Positions 11,740 to 33,502 of a DNA stretch of 64,000 nt are shown here, one piece after another (position 1 is the stretch's first letter; each line of letters begins with the position of its first letter). The position numbers and the translations under genes are program-made. The notes below the pieces were generated by a model. It saw nothing but the letters and a program-made list of their open reading frames with translations, was not told the origin of the DNA and searched no databases. Origin of the DNA: Robiginitomaculum sp. (GTDB lineage: Bacteria > Pseudomonadota > Alphaproteobacteria > Caulobacterales > Maricaulaceae); assembly GCA_016765135.1 (NCBI GenBank), contig JAESQN010000011.1:1-64000 (forward strand), read 5' to 3'.

Positions 11740-12968
<1,229 letters not shown>

Positions 12969-14277: not shown

Positions 14278-14310
14278 CTCTCCAGCAAGGATATGATTGG
14301 GAATAGAGAT

Positions 14311-15177
14311 ATGAACGTACCAAATTATTTTCTCCTGGGTGAAGAGCCGCGAGATATTGAAAAGAAATTTATCCATTTGGAACTGCTCTCTGATCGAAGT
14401 CAACCGAGTGATTGGCATATTCGTCCGCACGCCCATGATGCGCTTAACCATTTCTTTTTAATTCGTTCCGGGGCTGGAGAAATGCATGTAGATGGCCATA
14501 CTCACGCATTTGTTGGCCCTGCATTGCTACTTGTTCCCGCCCAATCTATTCACGCTTTTGATTTCGTCCCCGATAGTGATGGGATCGTTACCACCATCGG
14601 TGAGCCTTTCTTGCAAGAACTTCTGACACGCGTACCGGGCCTGGGCCGCCTGTTCGATAAGCCTGTTGCTTGTGCTATTGATGATGTTGATGGTATAAGT
14701 TCAGACTTAGACAAATTGAACGCCGAACTTAACTGGAATATGTCATTTGGAACGGCGGCTATTGAGGCACGCCTCACCGCGATTCTTATTTTCGCGGCCC
14801 GTATGAGCGCACTTGAAAGCAGCACCACTCTTTATGCAGATATTGCAAATGCGCAGCTCATTAACGAATTTCGGCATCTGCTGGAAAAACAGTATCGGGA
14901 GCATTGGACAGTTGAAACTTACGCTAAAAACCTGGGTGTCAGTGCAGTAAAATTACGGCGTGCGTGCCGCAAGATCACAAACCATCCACCTTACCATATA
15001 ATACAGGAACGATTGGTGCTCGAAGCGAAACGTTCGCTCTCTTACTCAAACAGAACCATTGCACAAATTGGCTTTTCTCTCGGATTTGACGACCCTGCTT
15101 ATTTCTCGCGTTTCATCGTCCAGCGTCTCGGCGAGACCCCGCGTCAATACCGGCAAGATAGACGCAAAATCACTTAA
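14311..15177 (+). CDS. AraC-family regulator, PobR-like
   Basis: A 288-residue regulator divergent from pobA, the usual arrangement for an activator of 4-hydroxybenzoate hydroxylase. The N-terminal cupin domain includes HDALNHFFLIRSGAGEMHVDG and LLLVPAQSIHAFDF. The C-terminal HTH pair ends in AQIGFSLGFDDPAYFSRF followed by GETPRQYRQ. An upstream ATG at 14293 is in frame, but its AAGG is too close and only a few bases past the predicted transcription start. ATG 14311 with GGGAATAGAGA is better. The assignment as pobA regulator is from position and fold, and the inducer (4-hydroxybenzoate) is inferred. The end overlaps the convergent LysR gene by 8 bp. Confidence 0.85.
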   Translation: MNVPNYFLLGEEPRDIEKKFIHLELLSDRSQPSDWHIRPHAHDALNHFFLIRSGAGEMHVDGHTHAFVGPALLLVPAQSIHAFDFVPDSDGIVTTIGEPFLQELLTRVPGLGRLFDKPVACAIDDVDGISSDLDKLNAELNWNMSFGTAAIEARLTAILIFAARMSALESSTTLYADIANAQLINEFRHLLEKQYREHWTVETYAKNLGVSAVKLRRACRKITNHPPYHIIQERLVLEAKRSLSYSNRTIAQIGFSLGFDDPAYFSRFIVQRLGETPRQYRQDRRKIT

Positions 15178-16417
15178 TCAGTACGCGTCCATATCCTTCA
15201 CTTGCAATTCGCCGTACGGTTTTAACAAGCTGCTTTTGTGCAGCGGTTGGTCGCCAGTTTTTTCGAAAGGTAAGCGAAATTGATCGGGAAATAGTGTGCC
15301 CAGGCGGTTTTCTGGACGTAATCAGGCCCTTATCAAGTTCCATATGTGCCTGAGCGTCAGAGAGTAACATCAATCGATCACTATTCATAAGCATAACCCG
15401 TGCCGCTGAAAGTGAATTACATTCGACAATATCCAACGGTGGTAAATTTTGCCCAAACAGGGCATCGAAATGCACCCGTAATGGCGATGATTGTCGAGGC
15501 GCCACCCAGGGAAAAACGGCAAGACGCTTTGATGTAAGGCGCGGTGCGCTGGCCAATGGGTGTTCGGGGCGCATCAAAACGGACAACACATCCTCAAACA
15601 CCAATTCCTCAACAACATCCATTTCGCAATTACCGCCTCGCGTGGCCCCGATCAGCATGTCAACGCGTCCGCGGGCCAGGTCAGTTATTAGTATTTCATA
15701 TGGTGCTTCAACAATTGAAATACGATGCCCCCTATGGCGCGCGCAAAATTCCATCACTGCCATTGGCGCAAGAAAAGCGCGAGCCAGGGGCATAGCGCCA
15801 ATTACGGTCTCACCTTTTTCCATGCCTTTAAGTACGGCAATTTCCGCGCGCGCTTGGCGAATTTCAGAAAATGCCCGCCCTCCTGCAGCGCCGAGCGTTA
15901 CCGCCGCCCGCGTGGGCTGAACACCAAAACTTGTCTTCTCGAAAAGGACAACACCAACAATTTTTTCCAATTCACGTGCGGCGCGGTGCACTGTCGGTAC
16001 CGCCAAATTCTCTGCGCGTGCAGCTTGCGCAAACCCGCCATGTTCGACCGTGGCAATAAGCGATTTCAAATGCACTGTTGAAATAGCATTTGCGATGCGC
16101 GAACATTCTTTCTTATCAAAATTCGATATTTCTTTGACAGCTTTAAATATTCCGCCAAGTGCGGTTTTTGCGCGGGCAGTCAATATCTGTCCAGCCTGTG
16201 TTAAAAACACACCGGATTTAGTCCGGGTGAACAGAATAACGGAAAAATCACGCTCTAAGCCTTGTATTGACTGACTAATAGCAGGTTGGGATCGACCGAG
16301 TATTACCGCTGCGGCAGAAATATTTTCAGCTTTAGCGACCGTCACGAGTGCGCGCAATTGTCGAATATTAGTGTTTGGCACAGAATGACTTTCATAGAAA
16401 AACATATCTATTAGCAT
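15170..16417 (-). CDS. LysR-family regulator with two N-terminal HTH domains
   Basis: A 415-residue protein, about 100 residues longer than ordinary LysR proteins. The extra length is a second LysR-type winged HTH: the first spans about 18-76 (ISAAAVILGRSQPAISQSI, RTKSGVFLTQAG), the second about 114-172 (GGFAQAARAENLAVPTVHRA, KTSFGVQPTRA). An effector-binding domain follows (about 205-400, with GAMPLARAFLAP, VDMLIGATRGG and ECNSLSAARVML). It is divergent from ligK with a 92-bp gap, so it probably controls the ligK-U-J-I operon as LigR/PmdR-type LysR proteins do for protocatechuate genes elsewhere. The start is uncertain: ATG 16417, ATG 16405 and GTG 16381 are all possible and none alters the domains. 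Confidence 0.85.
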   Translation of the reverse strand: MLIDMFFYESHSVPNTNIRQLRALVTVAKAENISAAAVILGRSQPAISQSIQGLERDFSVILFTRTKSGVFLTQAGQILTARAKTALGGIFKAVKEISNFDKKECSRIANAISTVHLKSLIATVEHGGFAQAARAENLAVPTVHRAARELEKIVGVVLFEKTSFGVQPTRAAVTLGAAGGRAFSEIRQARAEIAVLKGMEKGETVIGAMPLARAFLAPMAVMEFCARHRGHRISIVEAPYEILITDLARGRVDMLIGATRGGNCEMDVVEELVFEDVLSVLMRPEHPLASAPRLTSKRLAVFPWVAPRQSSPLRVHFDALFGQNLPPLDIVECNSLSAARVMLMNSDRLMLLSDAQAHMELDKGLITSRKPPGHTISRSISLTFRKNWRPTAAQKQLVKTVRRIASEGYGRVLIK

Positions 16418-16509
16418 TTTCTTATAGATAAAAGCAATTATTAATTAGTCTTTTAACTGTGAATGCAAGATAGTTTTGGCGAAGTTATTTTTAAAATTTG
16501 GAGTAAGGT

Positions 16510-17205
16510 ATGGGTGTTGTCGTTCAGAATATAAAACGCGTTGAGACATCCGTCATTGAGGCCTTTATCAAAGGCAAATATGGTGTCGCAACCGTCCATG
16601 AAGCGCAAGGCCGCAAAGGCCTCCTGGCGGCGGACATCAATCCGATTTACAAAGGCGCCCATATCGTCGGTAGTGCAGTCACCGTCTCGGCACCGCCTTG
16701 CGACAATTGGATGATCCATGTGGCGGTCGAACAATGCCAGCCAGGCGATGTGTTGGTGCTCGCTCCGACGTCCAATTCCGACGCAGGTTATTTTGGCGAT
16801 TTGCTCGCGACATCTTTGATGGCACGCGACGTTATGGGGCTTATCATCAATGCCGGTGTACGCGACATTAAAGACCTGACCGAGATGGGTTTCCCGGTTT
16901 GGTCAAAACATGTACATTCGCAAGGGACGGTTAAAGAAACCCTCGGCTGCGTGAATATACCTATCGTCTGCGCGGGCGTTTCTGTTAACCCTGGCGACCT
17001 TATCATCGCCGATGATGACGGCGTCGTGGTTGTTGCCTATAAGGACGCTGCGGATGTTTTAAAGAAATCACAAGAACGAGAACGCAATGAAGAGATAAAA
17101 CGCAAACGCCTTGCGGCAGGCGAGCTTGGCCTCGACATATATAATATGCGCCCAAGGCTAGAGCAAAAAGGCTTGAAATACATAGACCAGGCTGATTTGG
17201 ATTGA
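16510..17205 (+). CDS. ligK: 4-carboxy-4-hydroxy-2-oxoadipate aldolase
   Basis: Class II aldolase of the RraA-like fold, 231 residues. It splits 4-carboxy-4-hydroxy-2-oxoadipate into pyruvate and oxaloacetate, the last step of the 4,5-cleavage route. Recognisable features are [14 protein letters not shown] near the N-terminus, the phosphate/substrate loop [19 protein letters not shown], and [10 protein letters not shown] with the conserved Arg-Asp pair that contacts substrate and metal. GGAG and AAGG precede the ATG. It is the first gene of the rightward operon, facing the LysR gene. Confidence 0.94.
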
Positions 17206-17210
17206 GTTTT

Positions 17211-18305
17211 ATGCAAACCGCAATCCCCACAACCCTCATGCGCGGCGGCACCTCAAAGGGACTGTATTTCCACAAGAACGCCTTGCCCGCAGAGGCCGAA
17301 ATACGCAACCGTGTTTTGCTTCGTATTATGGGGTCGCCCGATATGCGCCAGATCGACGGAGTTGGCGGCGCGCACCCGCTGACCAGTAAGGTGGCGATTA
17401 TCTCACCAACAATGCGTGAGGGCGCAGATATTGACTATTTATTTTTGCAAGTCACCGTCGACAAAGCACAAGTTTCTGACAATCAAAACTGCGGCAATAT
17501 CTTGGCGGGTGTCGGGCCTTGGGCAATCGAAAATGGCCTGGTAGATGTTTCTGGCGCAACAACGCCTGTGCGCATTCATATGGTTAATACTGGCAGTATC
17601 GCAATGGCTCATATACCCACACCAAACGGGTTTGTTACCTATGAGGGCGATGCACGCATTGACGGTGTGCCGGGAACAGCGGCACCCATCTTGATTGATT
17701 TTCTGGATGTTGCCGGCGCGACTTGTGGCGCGCTTCTTCCGACCGGTAATGTCATCGATAAGATCAACGGTCTGGATGTTACATGTATTGATAATGGTAT
17801 GCCCGTCGTCGTGTTGCGCGCTTGCGATTTTGGTCTCAGCGGAAAAGAAACCGCTGAGGAGCTGGAAAATAATACAATGCTGAAACAACGTATCGAGAAA
17901 ATCCGTCTTGCCCTCGGACCCCGGATGAACCTTGGCGACGTCTCCCAAAAAACCGTGCCAAAAATGACATTGATCTCGCCGCCAACCAGAGGCGGTGTGA
18001 TCAACACCCGCAGCTTTATTCCTCACCGTGTCCATGAAGCGATCGGCGTATTGGGCGCTGTCAGCGTTGCGACGGCATGTGTTTTACCAGGTTCGGTTGC
18101 TGCGTCCGCGGCAAAAACCAAAAACACATCAAGTGGTGCCCACCGCCTCGATGTGGAGCACCCAACCGGCTTTTTCACTGTCAATATGGACATTGAACTT
18201 GGTAGCGGTGACATCAAGATTAAACACTCCGCTCTCTTGCGAACGGCACGAAAACTCATGGGTGGTGACGTATATATTCCGTCTCATATATGGAGCGGCA
18301 AATGA
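17211..18305 (+). CDS. ligU: 4-oxalomesaconate tautomerase
   Basis: PrpF-family isomerase of 364 residues that interconverts keto and enol forms of 4-oxalomesaconate before hydration. Characteristic segments are LMRGGTSKG at the N-terminus, QIDGVGGAHPLTSKVAI near residue 45, NCGNILAGVGPWAIENG near 95 and a duplicated second half. The length fits LigU/GalD (about 361). ATG 17211 is 5 bp after the ligK stop. Its end overlaps the next gene by ATGA. Confidence 0.92.
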   Translation: MQTAIPTTLMRGGTSKGLYFHKNALPAEAEIRNRVLLRIMGSPDMRQIDGVGGAHPLTSKVAIISPTMREGADIDYLFLQVTVDKAQVSDNQNCGNILAGVGPWAIENGLVDVSGATTPVRIHMVNTGSIAMAHIPTPNGFVTYEGDARIDGVPGTAAPILIDFLDVAGATCGALLPTGNVIDKINGLDVTCIDNGMPVVVLRACDFGLSGKETAEELENNTMLKQRIEKIRLALGPRMNLGDVSQKTVPKMTLISPPTRGGVINTRSFIPHRVHEAIGVLGAVSVATACVLPGSVAASAAKTKNTSSGAHRLDVEHPTGFFTVNMDIELGSGDIKIKHSALLRTARKLMGGDVYIPSHIWSGK

Positions 18306-19198
18306 CCCTGCTGCGCATTTGCCTTATCGGCTTTGGCGAAGTTGGCCAAACCTTGTGCGCTGATTTTATCGCCAAAGGCCAAAGCAGGCTTACGGTATGG
18401 GACGTATTATTTGGAGACAAACAAAGCGCCCCGTCACAAGGCCTCAAAAACGTCGATATTATTGCTGCCGTTTCCGCGAAAAGCGCTGTCGCAAAAGCCA
18501 GTATCATTATTTCTGCCGTAACAGCTGCAAAAACCATCAACGCCGCCACAGATGTAGCAAAGGGGATTAAAGACGGGGCATGGTTCCTCGACCTTAACTC
18601 TGCTTCCCCCCATACAAAACAAACGACCGCCCGCATCATAAATGAGGCGGGCGGCCGTTATGTGGAAGCTGCATTGATGGCGCCCATTGCACCAAAGCGT
18701 ATTGCCGCGCCTGTTTTACTGGGGGGGCCTTATGCAGCTGAATTCGAGCCGGTCGCATTGGCGCACGGATTATCAAATACCCGGTATTTTTCATCCGATT
18801 ATGGCAAGGCATCCGCGGCGAAGATGTGCCGCTCGGTGATGGTCAAAGGTATTGAGGCTTTGTTGATGGAATCTCTTCTCGCCGCACGTCATTACGGTGT
18901 TTTGGGCACGGTCACCAGTTCTTTAAGTGATCTTTTTCCTGGCTCTGAATGGTCGACCTTATCACATCAAATGATTTCCAGATCCCTCAAACATGGTTAC
19001 CGCCGAGCCGAAGAAATGCGCGAGGTTGCGCAAACAGTATTGGAAGCGGGAATTGAGCCGGATATGAGCCGTGCTTGCGCCAAATGCCAGGACTGGGCCG
19101 CAGCAAGAAAAGCCGTCACGACTGAAACCAGCTTAGAGCCAATGCTTGATGCGATCATGAAAACCATCGACCGAGAAAATGAGAACAGGAAATATTGA
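18302..19198 (+). CDS. NAD(P)-binding dehydrogenase with DUF1932 domain, in the lig operon
   Basis: A 298-residue protein. The N-terminal Rossmann fold begins ICLIGFGEVGQTL and resembles 3-hydroxyisobutyrate or 6-phosphogluconate dehydrogenases (NSASPHTKQT near residue 100). The C-terminal helical DUF1932 domain contains AAKMCRSVMVKGIEALL, with the Lys expected at the catalytic site of the superfamily. It begins inside the ligU stop codon (ATGA) and its end abuts ligJ, so it is made with the protocatechuate enzymes although the known route needs no further dehydrogenase. Its role is unknown; handling of a side product or of an alternative pathway intermediate is a guess. Confidence 0.82.
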   Translation: MTLLRICLIGFGEVGQTLCADFIAKGQSRLTVWDVLFGDKQSAPSQGLKNVDIIAAVSAKSAVAKASIIISAVTAAKTINAATDVAKGIKDGAWFLDLNSASPHTKQTTARIINEAGGRYVEAALMAPIAPKRIAAPVLLGGPYAAEFEPVALAHGLSNTRYFSSDYGKASAAKMCRSVMVKGIEALLMESLLAARHYGVLGTVTSSLSDLFPGSEWSTLSHQMISRSLKHGYRRAEEMREVAQTVLEAGIEPDMSRACAKCQDWAAARKAVTTETSLEPMLDAIMKTIDRENENRKY

Positions 19199-19199
19199 C

Positions 19200-20225
19200 A
19201 TGTTGATCATCGACTGCCATGGCCATCATACTGTAACGCCCCAGGCACACCTAGATTACCGCAAGGCTCAAAAGGCGGCCCTAACAGATGCTTGCCTTGC
19301 CCATCCTCAACGCCCTGACATCAGTGACGATGAAATTCGCGAGGGCATTGAGGCCAATCAACTCAAGCTTTTAAAGGAACGCGGCGCCGATCTAACAATA
19401 TTTTCTCCACGCGCCTCGCGGATGGAACCCCATATAGGAAGCGCCGACACCGCTCGCAACTGGTCAATGGCTTGCAATAATCTCATTCACCGTGTGACCA
19501 ATCTTTACCCTGATACATTTGTCGGTGTTTGCATGTTGCCACAAACACCAGGTGGAGATTTTAAGCACTGCATCGAAGAGCTTGAACGTTGCGTCAATGA
19601 ATTGGGTTTTATCGGGTGTAATCTGAACCCTGATCCTTCTGGCGGTTACTGGACGTCGCCACCACTGACCGACAAATACTGGTATCCATTATACGAAAAG
19701 ATGGTTGAACTTGACATACCGGCAATGGTGCATGTTTCTGGCTCGTGCAATCCGGCCTTCCATGCTACCGGATCATATTATATTGCGGCGGACACCAATG
19801 CCTTCATGCAATTTATTCAGGGCGACCTTTTCAAAGACTTCCCGGACTTACGCTTCATCATCCCTCACGGTGGAGGTGCTGTCCCCTATCATTGGGGGCG
19901 TTACCGGGGCCTTGCCGATATGTTAAAACAACCTTCGCTCGATACACATGTGATGAAGAATGTTTATTTCGATACCTGCGTTTATCACCAGCCTGGCATC
20001 GATCTCTTATTTGACGTTATCGACATTGACAACATCCTGTTCGGTTCAGAAATGGTTGGTGCCGTGCGCTGTATTGATCCCCAGACCGGACAATATTTTG
20101 ACGACACCAAGCGCTATGTCGATAAGCTTGGACTTTCCCGGGCTGATCTGAGAAAAGTATATGAGGGTAATGCCCGACGTGTTTATCCACGGCTTGACGC
20201 AATACTTAAACAACGGGGGTTTTAA
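19200..20225 (+). CDS. ligJ: 4-oxalomesaconate hydratase
   Basis: Amidohydrolase-superfamily lyase of exactly 341 residues from ATG 19200 (AGGAA upstream), the length of Sphingobium LigJ. It adds water to 4-oxalomesaconate to form 4-carboxy-4-hydroxy-2-oxoadipate. Metal and active-site elements: DCHGHHTV at 5-12, VHVSGSCNPAFHATGSYY near 180, PHGGGAVPYHWGRYRG near 222 and the late GSEMVGA. The stop is directly followed by the ligI ATG. Confidence 0.94.
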   Translation: MLIIDCHGHHTVTPQAHLDYRKAQKAALTDACLAHPQRPDISDDEIREGIEANQLKLLKERGADLTIFSPRASRMEPHIGSADTARNWSMACNNLIHRVTNLYPDTFVGVCMLPQTPGGDFKHCIEELERCVNELGFIGCNLNPDPSGGYWTSPPLTDKYWYPLYEKMVELDIPAMVHVSGSCNPAFHATGSYYIAADTNAFMQFIQGDLFKDFPDLRFIIPHGGGAVPYHWGRYRGLADMLKQPSLDTHVMKNVYFDTCVYHQPGIDLLFDVIDIDNILFGSEMVGAVRCIDPQTGQYFDDTKRYVDKLGLSRADLRKVYEGNARRVYPRLDAILKQRGF

Positions 20226-21119
20226 ATGGGGCATAAATTCCAAATGGATCCAAAAGGCTGGCGCGTTTGGCACCCATCGCCAACAAAGCCAATATTTACC
20301 CCACCTCCCGGAGCCGTTGACGCCCATTGTCACGTGTTCGGGCCTAGCGACATATTTCCATTTGCTCCCGAACGTAAGTACACGCCCTGCGATGCCTCAA
20401 AAGAACAGCTCTGGGCGCTACGCGATCATCTTGGGTTTTCACGAAATGTGATCGTGCAAGCCACTTGTCACGGCGCAGATAATCGTTCGCTTCTTGACGC
20501 ACTAAGATCGTCCGGAGGACTTGCCAAGGGCGTTGCAACTGTCCGGCGGGATATAACTGACCGTGAGTTGAGCGCGTTAAATGATGCGGGCGTAAGAGGT
20601 GTCCGATTTAACTTTGTTAAACGTCTTGTCGACGTCCTTCCTACCGACGATTTCATCGAAATTGCTCAACGCATTAAGCTGCTGAACTGGCATATCGTCA
20701 TCTATTTTGAAGCAGCCGATCTACCTGATCTCTACGATCTATTTGTTCAAGTGCCAACAACAATTATTATTGATCATATGGGCCGCCCGGATGTGACGAA
20801 ACCTGTCGACGGGCCAGAATTTGCCTTGTTTTTGAAACTGTTGCGCGAAAATGAAAACATCTGGACGAAGGTCACATGTCCGGAACGCTTATCGGCCGAA
20901 GGGCCCAATGAATACAATGACGTGGTTCCTTTCGCCCGCCATATTGTTGATGAATTCCCTGACCGTGTTCTTTGGGGTACGGATTGGCCACATCCGAACA
21001 TGAAGAGCCATACGCCGGATGATGGTGCGCTCGTTGATTTTATTCCCAAAATCGCACCAACCAAGGTTTTGCAACAAAAACTGCTGGTTGATAATCCTAT
21101 GCGTCTTTACTGGCCTTGA
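20226..21119 (+). CDS. ligI: 2-pyrone-4,6-dicarboxylate hydrolase
   Basis: A 297-residue amidohydrolase-family lactonase that opens 2-pyrone-4,6-dicarboxylate to 4-oxalomesaconate. The family signatures are VDAHCHVFGP near residue 31, VQATCHGADN near 78, IDHMGRPD near 180 and the catalytic Asp in WGTDWPHPN near 250. It starts immediately after the ligJ stop with no gap (TAAATG), suggesting coupled translation. It is the last gene of the operon; the exported amidase gene converges on it. Confidence 0.95.
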   Translation: MGHKFQMDPKGWRVWHPSPTKPIFTPPPGAVDAHCHVFGPSDIFPFAPERKYTPCDASKEQLWALRDHLGFSRNVIVQATCHGADNRSLLDALRSSGGLAKGVATVRRDITDRELSALNDAGVRGVRFNFVKRLVDVLPTDDFIEIAQRIKLLNWHIVIYFEAADLPDLYDLFVQVPTTIIIDHMGRPDVTKPVDGPEFALFLKLLRENENIWTKVTCPERLSAEGPNEYNDVVPFARHIVDEFPDRVLWGTDWPHPNMKSHTPDDGALVDFIPKIAPTKVLQQKLLVDNPMRLYWP

Positions 21120-23592: not shown

Positions 23593-24081
23593 TCTCAATT
23601 CTCTCCGGTTACTGGATATATTCATATGACTTAAACGGGGCGGCTAAAAGGGATCTACGCCTTCAGCCGTCTCGTGCTCTTCGCGGATGGGAATGCTTTA
23701 CTCCTCAGAAGTTCGCGGCGCCCCTTGCAAGCTATAATCAGCTCCCAGTTTGCCCGCTTGTCTTGAGATTATTCCAACATATTACCCTCTGCCGACTTAC
23801 AGCTATCTTTATATACCTCCCTCCTTCCCGATCTTGTCTGAGACGGCACTAAAACTTGCCCAAAAGCGAAGACCGCTTGATTAATGCCGAAGTAAAAATA
23901 CTGAAATGAGAGATAAAATCGTTATAGATTCACAGCCAAAGCGCTTGTTTTCCCACCCTTGAGGCGCGCCCTGTCCTCAGGTTTGTCGCCAAGGAAACGT
24001 TACGGAACCGGGTTTGACACGCGCTAATGATCGGTGGTAGTGCGCGCCGCAACGCAAATCGTGCAAATCAGGAAATACTCC
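23593..24081. other. Intergenic region, 489 bp, no gene seen
   Basis: Divergent region between the exported lactonase-like gene and the aromatic acid transporter gene. All frames are closed by frequent stops and I recognise no gene remnant, RNA or terminator. Promoters for both flanking genes should be here. The unusual length leaves room for regulatory sites that I could not resolve by eye. Confidence 0.4.
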
Positions 24082-25395
24082 ATGTCAGAAAAAACTCAAA
24101 GCGCACCGACAGGTATTACATCCTATCAGGTATGGGCGCTTGTCGCCCTTACTTTTTTGAATATGCAGGACGGGTTTGACATATTGGCGATTTCCTATGC
24201 TGCCAACGCAATCGCGACAAATTGGGACATTAGTCGGGGCGCACTTGGCATCGTACTAAGCGCAAGTTTGTTTGGCATGATGATCGGGGCGATGACGCTT
24301 AGCCCGCTTGCAGACAAATTTGGACGACGCACAATCACCGTTGTCGGCTTGATATTATCTGGCATCGGCATGCTGATTGCGATGTCGGCCGGATCAATCG
24401 AACTTCTGATCGCCGGTCGCGTCATCACAGGGCTTGGCATTGGTGGTATTCTGGCAAGCGTGAATACGCTGGTCGCCGAGTTTGCAGGTGAGAAATACCG
24501 ATCCACAGCAATCGCCATTTTCCAACTCGGCTTTCCAATGGGAGCGTTTCTGTCGGGGTTTCTTGTTGCCTGGTTACTTGATATCGGAACATGGCGTCAT
24601 GTATTTGCCTTCGGCGCGCTCTCATCTTTCATTTTTATACCAATTGTGCTGCTTTTACCGGAATCAATGGAATATCTGGCCAAAAGCGGCAAGCCGGATG
24701 CATTACGGCGCATCAACAATATTCGGGCGAAACTGCGCCAACCTGCACTCCATGCCCTGCCGGTTGCCATTGACCAGCCTCGCTCGTCCATGCTTGCCAA
24801 TATCCTGACCTTGTTCAACCGGGAATATGCACTGCGCACCGCTCTTATTTGGGCTTCTTTCTTTCTACTTTTAACCACACTCTATTTCATGTTGAGCTGG
24901 ATTCCGAAAATCCTGGTCGATACCGGTTTCACTGAAGCGCAGGGAAATCAGGGGGGAAGGCTTATCAATTTGGTAGGAATGTTGGGCATAGTCGTGATGG
25001 GAGTACTAAGTCTGCGTGTGCAATCACCTTTGGTAACGAGTGTGTATCTCGTAATGCTTGCTGGTATGATGTTCCTCCTAAGTATCACGCCGCTTGAGAT
25101 ATCTTCCGTCTTGATCGTGATCGGCTTGATTGGGTTCTTTCTGCATGGGTCTATGATCGGGCTCTATGCCACTGTGCCGACGCTCTATCCCGCCAGCATC
25201 CGGGCAACAGGTACCGGATGGGCCATCGGGCTCAGCCGGTTTGGAGCTGTGCTCGGGCCGGCAATGGCAGGGTATTTGCTTGAGGCAGGTTGGGCGCCGC
25301 GCAATTTACTTCAAGTGTTTGCAATTCCTGCTGGCCTTGCTGCGGTCACTGTCTTCTTGCTTTGGCAGGCACAGCGTCGCGTGAACCCCTCTTAG
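24082..25395 (+). CDS. MFS transporter of the aromatic acid:H+ symporter type (PcaK-like)
   Basis: A 437-residue inner-membrane carrier with 12 predicted segments. The first helix carries the acidic DGFDI motif typical of the AAHS family, loop 2-3 is LADKFGRRT, and TM4-5 includes GRVITGLGIGG. These are the marks of 4-hydroxybenzoate, protocatechuate and related carriers. ATG 24082 with AGGAA upstream is preferred to the longer frame. Its position near pobA and lig genes supports aromatic acid uptake; the exact substrate is inferred. Confidence 0.87.
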   Translation: MSEKTQSAPTGITSYQVWALVALTFLNMQDGFDILAISYAANAIATNWDISRGALGIVLSASLFGMMIGAMTLSPLADKFGRRTITVVGLILSGIGMLIAMSAGSIELLIAGRVITGLGIGGILASVNTLVAEFAGEKYRSTAIAIFQLGFPMGAFLSGFLVAWLLDIGTWRHVFAFGALSSFIFIPIVLLLPESMEYLAKSGKPDALRRINNIRAKLRQPALHALPVAIDQPRSSMLANILTLFNREYALRTALIWASFFLLLTTLYFMLSWIPKILVDTGFTEAQGNQGGRLINLVGMLGIVVMGVLSLRVQSPLVTSVYLVMLAGMMFLLSITPLEISSVLIVIGLIGFFLHGSMIGLYATVPTLYPASIRATGTGWAIGLSRFGAVLGPAMAGYLLEAGWAPRNLLQVFAIPAGLAAVTVFLLWQAQRRVNPS

Positions 25396-25578
25396 GGGCC
25401 ACCCTGTCCTGGAACACCTATAGATCCTGCGCCTAATCTCACTCAATAACAATTTCGGCCTGGCCCTTAAGATATACCGCCGCAGTCCAACTTCGCTTCC
25501 AGTCAAGTTTATGTTCGACCACAATCATGTGGGCAACATTGCCTTATGCTTACTTTACATAAAAGTAGGAGGGTCTCG

Positions 25579-26655
25579 ATGGCTAATCACAAACCTATCA
25601 TTTCTCTAAAGCGCTGCCCGCATCATATGCCGAGCGGCTGGAACCCGCCTGTACCGGCTTATTCAGCCGATCTTCATGCTGACACTCAAATTACAGTTCT
25701 TTATTTAGGCGTTCAAAGACCTACCGACGCGGCCTTGCGGGCCGTGAATGCCATGTTTGCGAAAACGGACACCGTGTCACTGGAATTTGCAGAATTTACA
25801 GATCGTGCCGGTGACGTTAATCGCGCCTATATTGCCTATTTTCAGGGTGCTGATGCTTTTTCCGATTGGTGTGGAGCCAGTAATTTTGATGCATTTTTGA
25901 GTGACGATAAACATCTCAATGCATCTTATGGTCTCTGGACTGAAATTTACGCATTTCAACGTGGTCAATTTGAGACGCTGTTCTCGACGCCAGACAGTCT
26001 GGAAGGTGTGGGGCAGCTTGCCTCCAAGACCGTCGGGCCGATCAGGGAGCATTCCTATTGGGGTGGTACCGAAGACCGCATCCCGAATTTCAAACCGGGC
26101 AATTTTGACGCGAGACTTGCCAAAATGCCTGCTCCAAAAGTTGCGAAAACCCGTGGCAGGCGCATTAAAGTCCAGGCGCCGGATAATTTTTGCCTGATCA
26201 GATCAGGGCAAGATTTACGCGCTATGAAAGCGCTCGAGCGCGATGAGTATGACGCCGAAATTGAACCGGCCTTGCGCGAAGGTCTTGCCTATTTGGCGGA
26301 CAATGCGGCTAGCGGTTGCTTTGAAAGTCGCTACATGCAGCATTGCTCACAAAATGGCGTATTGATTGAGAAAACATTCGGCATGCAGCTTTTCTTGTCG
26401 ATTAAACATCTGCTCGATTGGGCAAAGTCGCACCCGACCCACTTGAAGATATTCAAAAACTTCCAAACGATGGCTCTGGGGATGCAAGGTCAGATAGATT
26501 TGCGGTTGTGGCACGAGATCGCTGTAATCGCAGGTAAAGATATTCGCGCTGAATATATCAATTGCAACGCAATGACAGGCTTGCTGCCCTTCACTCATGT
26601 GCTCTCTCACCACCAAAGTACTGACAATTCTCTACAGGCTCAGGAGACAAGGTGA
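25579..26655 (+). CDS. Aldoxime dehydratase (heme-containing, phenylacetaldoxime dehydratase family)
   Basis: A 358-residue member of the Oxd family, which uses ferrous heme to dehydrate aldoximes to nitriles. The start is ATG 25579 with a strong AGGAGGG 6 bases upstream. Recognisable family segments are the N-terminal RCPHHMPSGWNPPVPAY, the central HSYWGGTEDRIPNF near 158-171, and the late SHPTHLKIF and LRLWHEIAV, whose histidines (His288 and His312) are candidates for the proximal heme ligand and the distal catalytic His. The nitrilase gene starts 43 bp downstream, the classical aldoxime-nitrile pathway order. The substrate (alkyl or aryl aldoxime) is not readable from sequence. Confidence 0.92.
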   Translation: MANHKPIISLKRCPHHMPSGWNPPVPAYSADLHADTQITVLYLGVQRPTDAALRAVNAMFAKTDTVSLEFAEFTDRAGDVNRAYIAYFQGADAFSDWCGASNFDAFLSDDKHLNASYGLWTEIYAFQRGQFETLFSTPDSLEGVGQLASKTVGPIREHSYWGGTEDRIPNFKPGNFDARLAKMPAPKVAKTRGRRIKVQAPDNFCLIRSGQDLRAMKALERDEYDAEIEPALREGLAYLADNAASGCFESRYMQHCSQNGVLIEKTFGMQLFLSIKHLLDWAKSHPTHLKIFKNFQTMALGMQGQIDLRLWHEIAVIAGKDIRAEYINCNAMTGLLPFTHVLSHHQSTDNSLQAQETR

Positions 26656-26698
26656 TGAATTTTTCTCGGTGTATGCGCCATAAATTAAGGATCAAAAA

Positions 26699-27709
26699 AT
26701 GATGAACAACTCTTTCAAAGCGGCGGCTGTTCAAGCAGCGCCTGAATTTATGGACCGCGCAGGGACTGTAAAGAAAACAATTGCGCTGATAGAATCCGCG
26801 GCTTCAAATGACGCATCACTGATCGTCTTTCCTGAAACATGGATTCCCGGATATCCATTCTGGGCATGGCTTGGATCACCTGCATGGGGCATGCAATTTG
26901 TGCAAGCTTATTCGCAAAACTCACTTGAGATCGCTTCTGAAGATTTTAGGGCAATCTGTAACGCTGCCGCCAAAGGCAATATCTATGTGATGCTTGGTTT
27001 TTCCGAGCACTACAATAATACGCTTTATATCGCACAAGCTCTCATCGGCCCTGATGGCGAAGTCGTTTTTACACGCCGAAAACTGAAACCGACCCACGTA
27101 GAACGGGCAATATATGGTAGCGGTGACGGTAGCGATTTTAAAGTTGCTGACACAAAAATTGGCCGGGTTGGTGGCTTATGTTGTTGGGAGCATCTGCAAC
27201 CACTTTCAAAATACGTCATGTTCAATGATAATGAGCAAGTGCACTGCGCCGCCTGGCCAGCCTTTAGTCTCTATGAGGGCATCGCCTATTCCCTCGGGCA
27301 CGAGATCAATATGAGGGCGAGCCAGATATACGCTCTCGAAGGACAGTGTTTTGTCATCGCGTCCTGCGCACTCGTTACCCAAGAAATGGTCGATAAGCTT
27401 TGTGAGACCGACGAGCAGCGAGCGCTTTTAGGTACTGGCGGCGGTTATTCGAAAATTTTCGGGCCGGATGGATCGCAAATTTCGCAAGATATGCCCCCCG
27501 ACCAGGAAGGTCTTGTCTACGCAGATATTGATCTCTCAATGATCCCGCTTGCAAAAGCGGCCGCAGATCCAGCCGGCCACTACTCTCGTCCCGACGTCAT
27601 GCAATTGCTGCTGGATCGCACCAAACGGACACCCGTCGTTGAAAAACAGTTGTCTGAAGGGGAATTTCTGGAGAGTGGCGGGGACCGGGCAACAATGAAC
27701 GCTGAATAA
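26699..27709 (+). CDS. Nitrilase
   Basis: A 336-residue C-N hydrolase that converts a nitrile directly to the carboxylic acid and ammonia. The triad is visible: Glu46 in FPETWIPGYPFW, Lys in RRKLKPTHVER near 128-130, and Cys162 in GGLCCWEHLQPL. The FPETWIPGYP/CWEH pattern is that of true nitrilases rather than amidases or carbamoylases. AAGGAT precedes the tandem ATG ATG. It is coupled with the aldoxime dehydratase upstream and followed 30 bp later by a TonB receptor, forming an uptake-plus-catabolism unit. Confidence 0.93.
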   Translation: MMNNSFKAAAVQAAPEFMDRAGTVKKTIALIESAASNDASLIVFPETWIPGYPFWAWLGSPAWGMQFVQAYSQNSLEIASEDFRAICNAAAKGNIYVMLGFSEHYNNTLYIAQALIGPDGEVVFTRRKLKPTHVERAIYGSGDGSDFKVADTKIGRVGGLCCWEHLQPLSKYVMFNDNEQVHCAAWPAFSLYEGIAYSLGHEINMRASQIYALEGQCFVIASCALVTQEMVDKLCETDEQRALLGTGGGYSKIFGPDGSQISQDMPPDQEGLVYADIDLSMIPLAKAAADPAGHYSRPDVMQLLLDRTKRTPVVEKQLSEGEFLESGGDRATMNAE

Positions 27710-27739
27710 TTCAGCAAAAAAACACAGATAGAGGTTATC

Positions 27740-30193
27740 ATGTTCATACAAAAAATAATTCTGGGGACTTCAACGCTGGCACTATCCGCAGCGCTCTCAA
27801 CTGCTGCTTACGCGCAGTCAGAAACGGATGAAAACAGCGTGCGCCAACTCGACACGATCATCGTAACGGCACAGAAACGCCAAGAGAATCTTCAAGATGT
27901 GCCGATCGCTATTTCAGCGCTTGACAGTCAGGGACTTGAGCGCCGCGGGATCACAAGAGTTGATCAAATTTCCGGATTTATACCCAATATCGACATCAAG
28001 AATACGGTGTCATTCGCAGGGTCGTCACAAATCCTGGTGGCCTCAATCCGAGGTATTGGTCAGAACGACTTCGCATTTAATCTGGAGCCTGGCGTCGGTG
28101 TTTATATCGATGGCGTTTACTTTGCACGGTCTCTCGGGGCGGTCGTTGATTTGCTCGATCTGGAGCGAATTGAGGTTCTTAAAGGGCCGCAGGGTACGCT
28201 TTTTGGACGCAATACGATCGGCGGCGCCTTGAATGTCATTACCCGGCGACCAAAGGGCGAATACGGTTATCAACTTGAACTGTCGACCGGAAGTTTCTCG
28301 CGTACAGACGTTCGTGGCTCCGTCGACATACCGCTTATTGAAGATCAATTGCTGTCGCAGTTCTCATTTTCTGTCAAGCGTCGCGATGGTTATCAGAGGC
28401 GCATCCCTTTTCCGGGTGCAGCAGGTACGGTGACAGATCTTGGCAATTTTCTGACGGCAGGCCCGGCAGGCGGATCGGACACCCAGGGCGGCGAGAATGT
28501 CTTCAACGGGAGGGCGAAAATCCTTTGGGAGCCGCGCGATGATTTTAGCCTCCTGTTATCAGCAGATTACACAAATGCCAATCAAGAGGCGCGTTCGACG
28601 ACATTGCTTGCGACATTCGCCGGCCCGACCGACGGTACAGCATTGTCAGCTTTTAATGGGTGCCTCTTTGGAGCCGCCCCAGCATTTATCTGTAGTGAGC
28701 GCGGCGTCGTGGGCACCAGCTTTTTTGGCGTTAATGTCGATGCTGACCCGAATAATGATCGTATTCCCTTTACGGATGCGCTTATCACTGGCGATATTGA
28801 CACGAATTTCTCCCGGGGCAGCAATTTCGATGATTTGGTGGCTTGGGGTGTTCACGCGACAGCGGACTATGATTTCTCGCCCAATGTTAGCCTCAAATCC
28901 ATTACGGCGTATCGTTCTCTGGATTCTCAATTTGGCGCTGAAATTGCGGGCGCTCCATTTGTTGGCAATGACGCCTCATTTGACATGAACCAAACCCAGT
29001 TTTCTCAAGAATTACAATTGAACATCAATCTTCTCGATGGCCGCTTCAAAAGTATACTTGGCGCTTATTACTTCACCGAACAGGGCGGACTAACCGATAC
29101 ACCGATCTTCGGTGAAGGGATTATCCAGATATTCGGGCAAAACGATTTTAACAATCGCGCCTTTGCGTTTTTCGCTCATGAAACATTCGACATCACGGAG
29201 CGTTGGGGCGTAACATTTGGGGCTCGCTACACCAATGAGCGCAAAGATTTTGAAGGCTTTCAACAGGATTTGAACTCATTCTTTCTCCGGGTGCGCGGCG
29301 CCGATCCAAATTTGCCGCTCCCCCCAGAAATCACGGCGATATTACCGGACCCAAATGACCCGACCCGTATTTTCCCGCTCGGGCCAAACCGATTGAATTT
29401 TGATGATGTCTCGTTCAAAGCGGGAACGGAGTATAGGGTCACAGACGATACGCTGGCCTATTATTCCTTTTCGCAAGGCTTCAAATCTGGCGGTTTCTCC
29501 ACGCGTCTGCTTGATGTGGTTCCTGGCAACAGCATTGACAGTCTGATTTTCGACCCCGAAACTGCGAATACACATGAAGTCGGTGTGAAGTCCGAGCTTT
29601 TCAATAATCGTGTTCGTTTGAATGCGGCGGTATTCACCACCGATTTCAACGATATCCAGGTCACCGTCTTTAACGGTATTTCGCCCGTATTCTCTAATGC
29701 GGGCCAAGCCAGGATCAGAGGGTTTGAGCTGGAAGGTGAAGCACGATTTGGCAATCTTTCGCTGAATGCAGGCCTCGGTCATTTAGATGCGGAGTATACA
29801 GAGCTTGGTGAAAATGTAACTTTCTCGATCACCAATGATTTGGTAAATACGCCGACCTGGTCTGCAACTATTGGCGGCAGTTATGATATTGATCTAGCCA
29901 ATAACAGCGGCCGAATTTCAATCCTTGGCGACTTTAATATCAAAAGCAGTACATCTCCTGATGCGGAAAATTCGCCGTTCTTGCGCAGCGGGAGAACTGA
30001 TATCTTAAATACTGCAATCGCCTACCATGATCCCAATGATCGCTGGAGCCTCACCGCCGGTGTCAACAATCTTACCGATGAACGGTTTATTGTTGGTGGT
30101 TTCGATCAAAGCGGCCCGGGCCAGGTTGGATTTGTTGGCGCGTCCTTTTCTCCGCCGCGTCAATGGTTTTTGACCTTGCGTGTAAAGGGGTAA
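27740..30193 (+). CDS. TonB-dependent outer-membrane receptor
   Basis: An 817-residue receptor with a signal peptide ending at AYAQ, a plug (TIIVTAQKRQENLQDVPIAIS, then IEVLKGPQGTLFGRNTIGGAL) and a long barrel ending in PPRQWFLTLRVKG. It belongs to the same broad class as the receptor at 4274 but is clearly a separate paralogue. Its position directly after the aldoxime dehydratase and nitrilase genes suggests it imports the aldoxime, nitrile or a conjugate (inference). A strong terminator closes the unit. Confidence 0.92.
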   Translation: MFIQKIILGTSTLALSAALSTAAYAQSETDENSVRQLDTIIVTAQKRQENLQDVPIAISALDSQGLERRGITRVDQISGFIPNIDIKNTVSFAGSSQILVASIRGIGQNDFAFNLEPGVGVYIDGVYFARSLGAVVDLLDLERIEVLKGPQGTLFGRNTIGGALNVITRRPKGEYGYQLELSTGSFSRTDVRGSVDIPLIEDQLLSQFSFSVKRRDGYQRRIPFPGAAGTVTDLGNFLTAGPAGGSDTQGGENVFNGRAKILWEPRDDFSLLLSADYTNANQEARSTTLLATFAGPTDGTALSAFNGCLFGAAPAFICSERGVVGTSFFGVNVDADPNNDRIPFTDALITGDIDTNFSRGSNFDDLVAWGVHATADYDFSPNVSLKSITAYRSLDSQFGAEIAGAPFVGNDASFDMNQTQFSQELQLNINLLDGRFKSILGAYYFTEQGGLTDTPIFGEGIIQIFGQNDFNNRAFAFFAHETFDITERWGVTFGARYTNERKDFEGFQQDLNSFFLRVRGADPNLPLPPEITAILPDPNDPTRIFPLGPNRLNFDDVSFKAGTEYRVTDDTLAYYSFSQGFKSGGFSTRLLDVVPGNSIDSLIFDPETANTHEVGVKSELFNNRVRLNAAVFTTDFNDIQVTVFNGISPVFSNAGQARIRGFELEGEARFGNLSLNAGLGHLDAEYTELGENVTFSITNDLVNTPTWSATIGGSYDIDLANNSGRISILGDFNIKSSTSPDAENSPFLRSGRTDILNTAIAYHDPNDRWSLTAGVNNLTDERFIVGGFDQSGPGQVGFVGASFSPPRQWFLTLRVKG

Positions 30194-30246: not shown

Positions 30247-30276
30247 AACCAGCAGGGGACGCCTGCTGGTTTTTTT
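30247..30276 (+). terminator. Rho-independent terminator
   Basis: A perfect 10-bp stem (aaccagcagg with cctgctggtt) and 5-base loop ggacg are followed by a run of T residues to 30276. It lies 54 bp after the TonB receptor stop and ends the aldoxime/nitrile unit. Confidence 0.9.
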
Positions 30277-30338: not shown

Positions 30339-31298
30339 ATGAGTAAACCCTTCGCATCCGCCAATGATTTATCTGAAAAAACTGAAACCCTGGAAATTCT
30401 CGCTGATGGTGTTTACGCCCTCACCGCGGAAGGTGATCCAAATATTGGCGCGATTGAAGGCGAAGACTTTATTGTCGCAATTGAGGCCCGGGCCACGCCG
30501 CTGGCGGCCAGGGGTTGGCTTAAAAAGCTACGTGAACACACGGACAAGCCTGTTCGTTACCTTATTCTTACCCATTATCACGCTGTACGCGTGCTAGGCG
30601 CGTCTGCCTTTGACGCTCAGGAAATCATAACATCGGCGGCGACACATAAACTGATGGAAGAACGCGGCAAAGAAGATTGGGATAGCGAGTTTGGCCGTAT
30701 GCCCCGCCTGTTTAAAAACCCGGATGAAATTCCTGGTCTGACCGCACCTACACTCACATTTGAAAAAGAAATGCGGATTGAACTTGGCGGCGACCGCGGC
30801 CATCTTGAGTTAAAGTTTTGCGGCAGGGGTCATACTGCAGGTGATATCGTTGTTTGGTATCCGAAAACCAAGGTTTTGTTTGCGGGTGATCTCGTGGAAG
30901 CCGAAGCTGCTCTTTATACTGGCGACGCTTTTCATATGGATTGGGCGTCCGATACACTGGATACTATCAAAGCGTTTCAAGCTGAAGCACTGATCGGTGG
31001 GCGCGGCGCGGTCGTTAAGGGGCGCGCTGCGGTCGATGCTGCGGTCGAGCAAACCCGTGAATTTCTTATCGGTATGCAGAACAATGTAAAAGCCGTTCAT
31101 GCGCGTGGTGGCACTCTGAAAGAGGCGTTCGAAGCAACTCATGAGGCCCTCGCACCGAAGTTCGGTCAGTGGCCAATCTTCGAGCACTGCCTTCCATTCA
31201 ATGTTCAGCGTCTCTGGGATGAATATGACGAGATTGACTGGCCGCGCATCTGGACCATGGAACGTGACCGCGAAGTCTGGGCCGAGCTACAGGGGTAA
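30339..31298 (+). CDS. Metallo-beta-lactamase-fold protein with a variant metal motif
   Basis: A 319-residue protein of the MBL superfamily. The usual HxHxDH is replaced by THYHAVRVLG (residues about 77-86), so the first two His remain but the Asp-His pair is absent. Later metal elements are present: CGRGHTAGDIVVWYP and LFAGDLVEAE. It probably binds one metal or has altered chemistry; catalytic activity is uncertain. It heads an operon with an AhpD-like protein (3 bp later), an FAD hydroxylase and a DUF2783 protein, so it may act on a ring-cleavage or hydroxylation product. Confidence 0.82.
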   Translation: MSKPFASANDLSEKTETLEILADGVYALTAEGDPNIGAIEGEDFIVAIEARATPLAARGWLKKLREHTDKPVRYLILTHYHAVRVLGASAFDAQEIITSAATHKLMEERGKEDWDSEFGRMPRLFKNPDEIPGLTAPTLTFEKEMRIELGGDRGHLELKFCGRGHTAGDIVVWYPKTKVLFAGDLVEAEAALYTGDAFHMDWASDTLDTIKAFQAEALIGGRGAVVKGRAAVDAAVEQTREFLIGMQNNVKAVHARGGTLKEAFEATHEALAPKFGQWPIFEHCLPFNVQRLWDEYDEIDWPRIWTMERDREVWAELQG

Positions 31299-31301: not shown

Positions 31302-31904
31302 ATGGCACATTTACGGCCGCTAAAAAATGATGAGATTAAGGACGACTTCATCCTAGAGCGTTTTGAGCATTATCAAGCCACACGCGGGTTCACGCCAAAT
31401 TCAATTCGCACTATGGCGCACCGCCCCAATGTGGCCAAAGCATTCATGGCGCTCAATCAGGCGGTTCTTTATGAAGGCGATGTTTCAGAAGAGTTGAAAA
31501 TGCTCATCAGCTTAGCCTGCTCCTACGCAGCGGGCTGTCTATATTGCCAATCCCATATGGCAAATTTGTCTCATCTTCATAATGCGTCTGACAAAAAAAT
31601 TACTGCAATTTTAGACTATGAAACATCTGATCAGTTCACGAACGCTGAACGTGCAGCCCTAGACCTTACCTTTAAAGCGGCGCAAATGCCAAATGCCGTA
31701 ACACAAGCAGAATTTGACGCTCTTAGCGAATATTTCAACGATAAACAAATTGTTGAAATTGTTTCCTCTATCGCTTTGTTCGGCTATCTCAATCGATGGA
31801 ATGATACAATGGCGACAGCTTTAGAGCCCCTGCCCAATCAGCGCGCGGAGAGGCTTTTGGGGTCACAAGGGTGGAGTCCTGGAAAGCACGGCGATAACAT
31901 ATGA
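31302..31904 (+). CDS. Carboxymuconolactone decarboxylase/AhpD-like protein
   Basis: A 200-residue all-helical protein of the CMD superfamily. The AhpD-type redox motif is visible as CLYCQSH around residue 80, followed by SHLHN. This suggests a thiol-disulfide or peroxidase-related activity rather than lactone decarboxylation, which lacks the CxxC. It overlaps the FAD monooxygenase start by ATGA and may protect against peroxide from uncoupled hydroxylation (inference). Confidence 0.82.
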   Translation: MAHLRPLKNDEIKDDFILERFEHYQATRGFTPNSIRTMAHRPNVAKAFMALNQAVLYEGDVSEELKMLISLACSYAAGCLYCQSHMANLSHLHNASDKKITAILDYETSDQFTNAERAALDLTFKAAQMPNAVTQAEFDALSEYFNDKQIVEIVSSIALFGYLNRWNDTMATALEPLPNQRAERLLGSQGWSPGKHGDNI

Positions 31905-33502
31905 GTTTTGATGCTATTCCAAAGTTCAAAGAAAAGGCTTACCAGATAGCTCCTGAATTACTTGGCGCCGGAAAGACAAAACACCCCTTCGTCATTGTTG
32001 GTTCTGGTCCGGTAGGTCTCACCTGCGCTTTGGAACTCGGCTTAAAAGGTCATGATGTTACCATCGTCACAGCGTTCGATTTTATCCCCCACGGCTCGAA
32101 GGCTATCTGTTTTTCAAAACAAACGCTCGATATTTTTGATCGACTGGGCGTTGGTCAAAGAATGGTCGACAAAGGCGTCACCTGGAATGTCGGCAAGCTG
32201 TTTTGGCGCGACCATGAAGACCCTGTCTTTCAGTTCGACATGTTACCTATCAAGGAGCAGAAAAACCCTGGTTTCATCAACCTCCAACAATACTATGTCG
32301 AAGACTTCCTCATCGACGCCCTGGAGCAGATGGACAATGTTGATATTCGATGGGGGCATGCCGTCAAAGAAATTCATATAAGAGGCGAAGAAACGACTTT
32401 AACAATAGAAACACGCGACGGCGATTATCCTATGGCGACAAGATATGTGCTTGCTTGCGATGGTCACCGGTCAACCATCCGACAGGCAATGCGTCTCGAT
32501 TTCGAGGGACGAATTTTTGAGGATAATTTTCTTATCGCGGACATAAAATTCACCGGGGAGGACGCATTACGGAGACCGTCAGAGCGCTGGTTCTGGTTTG
32601 ATCCACCCTTCTGTCCGGGCGGCACGGCGCTTTTGCACAAACAGCCTGATAATGTGTGGCGGCTCGATTTCCAGCTTGGATGGAATATTGATCGGGATGC
32701 GGCAATCAGACCCGAGAAAGTCGAACCTTATATCAAAGGCATGCTGGGTGAAGACGTGGTGTTCGAGAAGGAATGGTACTCGGTTTATACATTCCAATGT
32801 CGCCGTATGGAGCGGTTCGTCCACGGGCCTGTTATCTTTGCTGGCGATAGTGCGCATCTCGTCTCTCCATTTGGTGCACGGGGTGCCAATGGTGGTTTGT
32901 CGGATGCAGAAAACATTGCTTGGAAACTTGACCTTGTCCTTAAAGGGCAAGCTGACGCCAGCCTCATTGAAAGCTACAATTATGAGCGGGTGATGGGTGC
33001 AGATGAAAATATCCTGAACTCATCACGGGCAACAGATTTCATGACGCCAAAAAACAAAGCTTCTCTGGCATTCAGGGACGGCGTACTTGAGCTGGCCAGT
33101 GAATATGAATTTGCACGTCCACTGATTAATTCTGGGCGATTGTCCAAGCCGACACCCTATTATGATAGTCCATTATCAACGCCTGATCGGGATGAGTGGA
33201 TCAATGGACCTGCACCAGGCCATCCTTGCGTCGATGCATTGGTCATGGATAACACGTGCTGTACATGGGTGTTGGGTGCGCTCGGAAATTCATTCAAACT
33301 CCTTCATTTTGGCAATAATCCGCCGAACACCAGCATGGAAATTATCAGTGTGCCCACAACAGGTTTGGCTGCCGAACGATATGACGCGGTAGATGGCGGT
33401 ACATATCTTATTCGCCCAGATCAGGTTGTCGCGGCCAGATGGAAGAATGCCTCAAAGAGCGATGTGACTGCGGCCCACAAGAAAGCGCTGGGGTTTTCAT
33501 GA
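31901..33502 (+). CDS. FAD-dependent aromatic hydroxylase (MhpA/PheA-like)
   Basis: A 533-residue class A flavoprotein monooxygenase. The FAD fold starts with VIVGSGPVGLTCALEL near residue 30, the DG motif is LACDGHRSTIRQAM, and the ribityl motif is FAGDSAHLVSPFGARGANGG. A C-terminal thioredoxin-like extension is present, as in phenol and 3-(3-hydroxyphenyl)propionate hydroxylases. It likely hydroxylates a phenolic ring using NAD(P)H and O2; the substrate is not clear. Start and end both overlap neighbours by ATGA, indicating tight translational coupling. Confidence 0.88.
   Translation: MSFDAIPKFKEKAYQIAPELLGAGKTKHPFVIVGSGPVGLTCALELGLKGHDVTIVTAFDFIPHGSKAICFSKQTLDIFDRLGVGQRMVDKGVTWNVGKLFWRDHEDPVFQFDMLPIKEQKNPGFINLQQYYVEDFLIDALEQMDNVDIRWGHAVKEIHIRGEETTLTIETRDGDYPMATRYVLACDGHRSTIRQAMRLDFEGRIFEDNFLIADIKFTGEDALRRPSERWFWFDPPFCPGGTALLHKQPDNVWRLDFQLGWNIDRDAAIRPEKVEPYIKGMLGEDVVFEKEWYSVYTFQCRRMERFVHGPVIFAGDSAHLVSPFGARGANGGLSDAENIAWKLDLVLKGQADASLIESYNYERVMGADENILNSSRATDFMTPKNKASLAFRDGVLELASEYEFARPLINSGRLSKPTPYYDSPLSTPDRDEWINGPAPGHPCVDALVMDNTCCTWVLGALGNSFKLLHFGNNPPNTSMEIISVPTTGLAAERYDAVDGGTYLIRPDQVVAARWKNASKSDVTAAHKKALGFS

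Follow-up and report, generated by a model that had tools for sequence, protein, structure and literature searches.

A recurrent aldoxime dehydratase-nitrilase module with an adjoining TonB-dependent receptor in Alphaproteobacteria, probably for the catabolism of aromatic aldoximes

Introduction

Aldoxime dehydratases (Oxds) have drawn attention mainly as biocatalysts and in bacteria associated with plants. The aldoxime-nitrile gene clusters of Bacillus sp. OxB-1 and Bradyrhizobium bring together the AraC regulator NitR, a nitrilase and an Oxd (PMC8955678). Among TonB-dependent receptors (TBDRs), DdvT of Sphingobium sp. SYK-6 has been proven to import an aromatic compound, a lignin biphenyl (PMC6874591). 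Our survey of the open-access literature, with subscription papers outside its scope, found Oxd-nitrilase-NitR clusters but none with a TonB receptor. An earlier sequence-only reading of the DNA studied here had held that such a system is not usually described with one. Cellular uptake of aldoximes was likewise not described in the open-access papers found. Here we analyse a 64-kb stretch of DNA (the window) in which genes for an Oxd, a nitrilase and a TonB receptor lie side by side, and compare this locus with its relatives.

Results

The three genes, oxd, nit and TBDR, share one orientation (Table 1), with gaps of 43 bp between oxd and nit and 30 bp between nit and TBDR, and are followed by one strong terminator. 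Given these short gaps and the single terminator, they likely form one transcription unit. The sequence-only reading had described just such a unit, and each of its elements was borne out: the Oxd-type heme aldoxime dehydratase, the true nitrilase with its triad, the receptor in the same unit and the terminator that closes it. The oxd frame is open from 25546, and the ATG with AGGAGG just before it is the likely start, as had been proposed. When the window Oxd was aligned with the OxdRE structure (3a15), the positions corresponding to R178, S219, H299 and H320, the catalytic and heme-binding residues of OxdRE, were all found to be identical. In addition to its Plug and barrel domains, the receptor carries a signal peptide ending AYA/QS and a TonB box, DTIIVTAQKR.

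Table 1. Features of the window discussed in the text, in order of position.
Feature	Position	Strand	Evidence and remarks
AraC/FeaR-like regulator	279..1301	-	54-57% to oxd-adjacent regulators
Second operator-like site, between regulator and 1605 operon	1472..1513	+	identity to the oxd promoter at 26 of 36 bases, equalled in 0 of 300 shuffles
pobA/lig protocatechuate 4,5-cleavage cluster	10776..21119	.	predicted independent neighbour, outside the module
AAHS-type MFS carrier, probable inner-membrane partner	24034..25395	+	TIGR00895, 306 bits
Conserved operator-like site upstream of oxd	25501..25528	+	AGTCAAGTTTATGTTCGACCACAATCAT; common to the L006 and L011 araC-oxd intergenic regions
oxd, heme aldoxime dehydratase	25579..26655	+	PF13816, 237 bits; PDB 3w08, 1.2e-48; RBS AGGAGG
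nit, arylacetonitrilase-like nitrilase	26699..27709	+	PF00795, 177 bits; triad E46-K128-C162
TonB-dependent receptor (TBDR)	27740..30193	+	PF00593 barrel, PF07715 Plug
Intrinsic terminator closing oxd-nit-TBDR	30247..30271	+	10-pair stem, then T run; strong
MBL-fold hydrolase, first gene of downstream operon	30339..31298	+	PF00753; 73-80% to L077, L078 and L080 genes beside oxd modules
AhpD/CMD-like protein with CxxC	31302..31904	+	PF02627; 62-63% to L077, L080
Class A FAD monooxygenase, PRK08132 type	31901..33502	+	NF006002, 697 bits; 55-60% to L077, L078, L080

The nitrilase is most similar, among solved structures, to NitA (PDB 6zby; 57% identity over 310 residues), which we take to be the Pseudomonas fluorescens EBC191 arylacetonitrilase; second among them comes 22sf, at 49% identity. 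By this closest structure the window enzyme appears arylacetonitrilase-like, favouring arylacetonitriles as its predicted substrates and a conversion of arylacetaldoxime to arylacetate, not to benzoate.

We searched 137 genomes of the family for Oxd and found it in five, including the window genome. In all five, oxd, nitrilase and receptor genes lie side by side. Two of these genomes (G018 and G103) have an araC gene divergent from oxd-nit-TBDR, with 53% (Oxd), 67% (nitrilase) and 37-38% (receptor) identity to the window proteins, and two others (G007 and G002) have araC divergent from TBDR-nit-oxd and an Oxd that is distant from that of the window (30%). A wider census, in which GTDB genomes were scanned with an Oxd alignment and the best 80 of 402 matched loci were taken, supplemented by tblastn, added an alphaproteobacterial MAG, two Erythrobacter, Novosphingobium jiangmenense, an Emcibacter MAG and a Novosphingobium MAG. 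Two extra genes separate nit from oxd in the Emcibacter MAG, and the nitrilase of the Novosphingobium MAG cannot be judged because its contig starts inside oxd. The search for conserved Oxd-nitrilase-TonB synteny thus recovered at least ten other alphaproteobacterial loci (from Caulobacterales, Erythrobacter, Novosphingobium and Emcibacter) in which an Oxd gene, nearly always with a nitrilase gene, adjoins a receptor gene. Together with the window these make at least 11 loci in at least four gene orders, with receptors of one broad clade. With 20 receptor genes in the 2.87 Mb of the window genome, chance alone would put only about 0.07 receptors within 5 kb of any one gene, and the association of Oxd with a receptor is more than chance. 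The proposal of an aldoxime-nitrile unit with its own dedicated outer-membrane receptor is therefore supported by conserved synteny. Several of the related Oxd loci come from apparently marine MAGs.

In a first tree, ten oxd-linked receptors formed one clade (88/87). Once near relatives from genomes without oxd were added, at least two and probably four changes were needed for the oxd-linked receptors, which were now interleaved with receptors beside aldehyde dehydrogenase, esterase-like or amidase genes. We dropped the idea of a one-to-one specificity between receptor and aldoxime when these additions broke the clade. Given such interleaving, it is likelier that the ligand shared by these receptors is an aromatic scaffold than that it is the oxime group.

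Outer-membrane genes also accompany oxd elsewhere. For example, the Oxd operons of Pantoea, Erwinia, Pseudomonas, Acinetobacter, Agrobacterium, Rhizobium and Burkholderia include a gene annotated only as 'transporter', and all four of those tested encode a Phenol_MetA_deg (PF13557) outer-membrane barrel. A quick Oxd tree placed receptor-linked and barrel-linked Oxds on opposite sides (SH-aLRT 95). We infer that the TonB receptor and the barrel may stand in for each other as the outer-membrane entry protein of one pathway. Neither was found near the Variovorax oxd clusters, where weak receptor matches (64-73 bits, about 5 kb off) were left out of the count; an outer-membrane gene in Oxd operons is frequent, not universal.

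Beyond the terminator lies an operon for an MBL-fold hydrolase, an AhpD-like protein and a class A FAD monooxygenase. We had considered it unrelated to the module, as it occurs without oxd; conserved adjacency in Erythrobacter and Novosphingobium overturned this view. Indeed, in Erythrobacter (L077 and L080) and N. jiangmenense (L078) the order is araC-TBDR-MBL-(AhpD)-FAD monooxygenase, with nit-oxd divergent, although the AhpD gene was not found in L078. The Erythrobacter operon runs on into genes for a glyoxalase-fold protein, which also comes next in L078, and an FAA (FAH) hydrolase. The window order TBDR-MBL-AhpD-monooxygenase matches that of Erythrobacter, with the terminator intervening in the window. 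By these comparisons the operon is a conserved partner of the module, one overlooked by the sequence-only reading. The oxd genes of L006, L011 and L007 have no MBL-monooxygenase pair nearby, and the pair also occurs without oxd. The window genome includes a second copy, and one example of an oxd-less pair, on contig 49 of G000, has as neighbours an esterase-like gene and a receptor of sister type. Because of such occurrences it looks like a general degradation core with swappable front ends for aldoximes, ester-like compounds and amides. The nearest solved structure to the AhpD-like protein is that of the debrominase Bmp8.

Within the 64-kb window there are no ring-cleavage genes for the route that we propose. 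Homogentisate-type degradation of arylacetates was rejected, as homogentisate 1,2-dioxygenase (hmgA) is absent from all ten oxd-carrying genomes searched, while the control set was matched in Caulobacter; another obvious fate of arylacetates is thereby removed.

A FeaR-like AraC protein is encoded divergently from oxd in two related loci (L006 and L011). Its single orthologue in the window genome is the product of the regulator gene in Table 1 (reciprocal best match, 404 bits against 25 for the next), which sits 24 kb from oxd; in relatives the gene and the module are divergently oriented. Position 25501 carries the promoter site AGTCAAGTTTATGTTCGACC, which L006 and L011 also have, and a pattern drawn from those two loci alone has one site in the 64-kb window, at 25501, where 0.02 are expected. 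Similar TCAASTTTT sites occur in L007 and L008, in tandem and 22 bp apart. Exact TCARNTTTWTGTKC sites are found in the genome only at 25503 and 1488, the pattern being partly post hoc, as it was drawn after both were known. The simplest reading would be that regulator and oxd module belong to one regulon split by rearrangement. Orthology and shared motif thus mark the regulator, despite the 24 kb, as a probable conserved partner of the module, which had likewise been overlooked.

The sequence-only reading had also pointed to nearby pobA, ligABC and ligKUJI genes and a PcaK-like carrier. The cluster is present 4.5 kb upstream of the module: curated cut-offs are exceeded for pobA, ligB, ligK and ligU, membership of Amidohydro_2 is consistent with ligJ and ligI, and ligA and ligC are supported by conserved cluster synteny. 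Across the family, ligB (61-74% identity) was found in 10 of 58 other genomes, none of which has oxd. Conversely, a true ligB is absent from the oxd carriers G002 and G018 (G007 and G103 were outside this sample). None of the four such pob/lig clusters inspected has oxd, and the surroundings of the other oxd loci examined contain neither lig nor pob genes. In all relatives examined the cluster thus appears to be a unit independent of oxd. As for the carrier, an AAHS-type MFS protein is indeed encoded, but its 306 bits fall below the curated cut-off (418 bits). It is 58-65% identical to carriers beside receptors of the same type (L170 and L171, in G101 and G107) and about 40% identical to the lig-cluster carrier, so that it more likely serves the TonB receptor.

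Discussion

We propose, with a probability of roughly 0.6, that the module serves the catabolism of aryl aldoximes, most likely derived from arylacetaldehydes, and that it passes the resulting acid to the downstream operon. The gene set probably imports aromatic aldoximes through its dedicated receptor and makes nitriles and then acids from them. The AraC/FeaR-type activator would act at the operator before oxd. The TonB receptor would bring the aromatic substrate through the outer membrane and the neighbouring MFS carrier, probably, through the inner one. Oxd would then dehydrate the aldoxime to the nitrile, the nitrilase would release the acid and ammonia, and the enzymes of the neighbouring MBL-AhpD-FAD monooxygenase operon would hydroxylate the ring of the acid and degrade it further, probably in that order.

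A different fate for the acid had been suggested, namely a continuous route in which an imported 4-hydroxylated aryl aldoxime is converted to 4-hydroxybenzonitrile and 4-hydroxybenzoate and then degraded by the pobA/lig enzymes encoded 4-15 kb upstream. The physical closeness of an apparently complete pob/lig cluster speaks for it, as does the AAHS-type carrier between that cluster and oxd. The route was nevertheless not upheld and we consider it unlikely: co-occurrence and conserved linkage of oxd with pob/lig are absent among the relatives examined, the nitrilase is nearest an arylacetonitrilase, different conserved degradation genes adjoin the module, and the carrier resembles the receptor-linked carriers more than the lig-cluster one. 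The link of oxd to the 4-hydroxybenzoate genes is most likely a coincidence of neighbourhood. Alternatively, the acid might be degraded no further, with Oxd and nitrilase neutralising aldoximes and nitriles or making indole-3-acetate. Indole-3-acetaldoxime and phenylacetaldoxime are both substrates of characterised Oxds, and a part in interactions with plants has been proposed (PMC8955678); an amidase resembling indoleacetamide hydrolase is encoded at 21193-22698. We regard detoxification or auxin synthesis as rather unlikely, since the presence of a dedicated active importer, together with the conservation of a ring-degradation operon, suits use as food better.

The receptor itself could import iron or heme for Oxd, which needs heme, instead of an organic substrate, and among protein families the receptor scores best against models of siderophore receptors (TIGR01783, 147 bits). 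That score is under the curated cut-off, however, relatives of the receptor stand beside esterase-like, amidase and aldehyde dehydrogenase genes whose products have no need of heme, and elsewhere the outer-membrane gene of the Oxd operon encodes the Phenol_MetA_deg barrel, all of which makes iron or heme import very unlikely. There is, finally, a slim chance that the module is a marine system for tyrosine-derived and possibly brominated aryl aldoximes or nitriles, as from sponges, whose bromotyrosine oximes and nitriles have been described in the literature. The receptor would then take up a bulky phenolic, Oxd and nitrilase would remove the nitrogen, and the Bmp8-like AhpD protein and the class A flavin monooxygenase would act on the (halo)phenolic acid; the Bmp8 relationship and the apparently marine MAGs are hints of this kind.

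Aldoxime catabolism from arylacetaldehyde-derived substrates thus remains our preferred reading, and we regard the locus as a real, recurrent and probably regulated catabolic module in which the Oxd-nitrilase pathway itself is known and the receptor-linked arrangement appears to be new. From these data, Oxd operons seem often to include, as a third member, a protein for entry through the outer membrane. This protein would be of two unrelated kinds, a TonB receptor in Alphaproteobacteria and a Phenol_MetA_deg barrel in other groups. Together, the ring-degradation operon and the operator make aldoxime catabolism directly testable in the cultured N. jiangmenense.

Compared with known systems, the PcaK/pobA/lig 4,5-cleavage clusters have a representative 4.5 kb upstream, predicted to be independent of the module. 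By description, the window receptor is like DdvT in its predicted dedication to an aromatic catabolic substrate and in belonging to an alphaproteobacterium rich in TonB receptors; the cargo of DdvT is a lignin biphenyl, whereas that of the window receptor is a prediction. Similarly, the Oxd-nitrilase and Oxd-nitrile hydratase operons of Pseudomonas, Erwinia, Pantoea, Agrobacterium and Burkholderia share with the window an outer-membrane protein gene and an AraC regulator, but theirs is the unrelated, passive-type PF13557 barrel and their Oxds lie elsewhere on the tree. The clusters of Bacillus sp. OxB-1 and Bradyrhizobium resemble the window in having Oxd beside nitrilase, AraC-family regulation (here predicted) and nitrilases of arylacetonitrilase type. 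Unlike them, the window has a TonB receptor, its regulator is 24 kb off, an MFS carrier precedes the module and a conserved operon for ring degradation follows it.

A possible wider reach of the aldoxime regulator

The AraC regulator displaced from oxd adjoins an operon-like gene set that encodes a lipoprotein amidohydrolase, a TetR protein, a second TonB receptor, a class III aminotransferase, an MFS protein and an aldehyde dehydrogenase. Because the second operator-like site (at 1488) lies within the promoter region of this set, the set is possibly under the control of the aldoxime regulator, which may therefore be common to these genes and the aldoxime module.

Two predicted lipoproteins are encoded between this set and oxd. 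One, an indoleacetamide-hydrolase-like amidase, has a homologue at 61% in an MBL-monooxygenase-TonB receptor cluster (L050); its substrates may therefore be amides, either released by the nitrilase or imported. The other is an AHL-lactonase-like MBL protein. Elsewhere in the same genome (contig 49), a second MBL-FAD monooxygenase cluster includes a TonB receptor of a sister type together with genes for an SDR, a glyoxalase-fold protein and an esterase-like hydrolase. It is predicted to form a degradation route parallel to the first, with a different front end.

Directly downstream of the monooxygenase operon is a PLP enzyme gene for which no connection to the aldoxime module was found. Further on, a recombinase-like gene separates the catabolic region from genes for polysaccharide precursors, namely galU and those for UDP-glucose dehydrogenase and an epimerase.

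Features of the window and of compared loci (L) and genomes (G)
Locus	Position	Strand	Feature
Window	1605-10706	+	Operon-like gene set
Window	21193-22698	-	Lipoprotein amidase
Window	22738-23625	-	Lipoprotein MBL protein
Window	33828-34856	-	D-cysteate sulfo-lyase/D-cysteine desulfhydrase-type PLP enzyme
Window	38367-39185	-	Distant tyrosine-recombinase-like protein
L052 (G000)	2332-10353		Second MBL-FAD monooxygenase cluster
L007	9641-10690		Divergent Oxd
L008 (G002)	5864-6898		Divergent Oxd
L008 (G002)	2512-4821		TonB receptor with stop codon
L017 (G470)	8584-9594		Oxd-family protein
L154	7068-7943		PF13557 protein
L155	7116-7937		PF13557 protein
L156	9289-10191		PF13557 protein
L157	7058-7924		PF13557 protein

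Oxd variants and Oxd operons in other genomes

A divergent Oxd lineage (L007 and L008) carries Lys-Thr-Thr for Arg-Ser-Gly around the catalytic serine, yet its genes are still found in linkage with those for a nitrilase, a TonB receptor and an AraC protein. At L008 the oxd-linked receptor gene contains a stop codon, so that either the receptor is broken or the sequence is in error, while the nitrilase and oxd frames are open. In the Oxd-family protein of G470, WVEV replaces WHEV, so that the catalytic histidine is missing, as is the serine of the LIRSGQ motif; no nitrilase was found next to its gene, and the protein perhaps has a different activity within the family.

In Pantoea, Acinetobacter and Agrobacterium, the Oxd operons include genes whose sole annotation is 'transporter' but which encode PF13557 (Phenol_MetA_deg) proteins. 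The Phenol_MetA_deg protein is a recurrent component of Oxd clusters, and apparently one that has so far gone unremarked.
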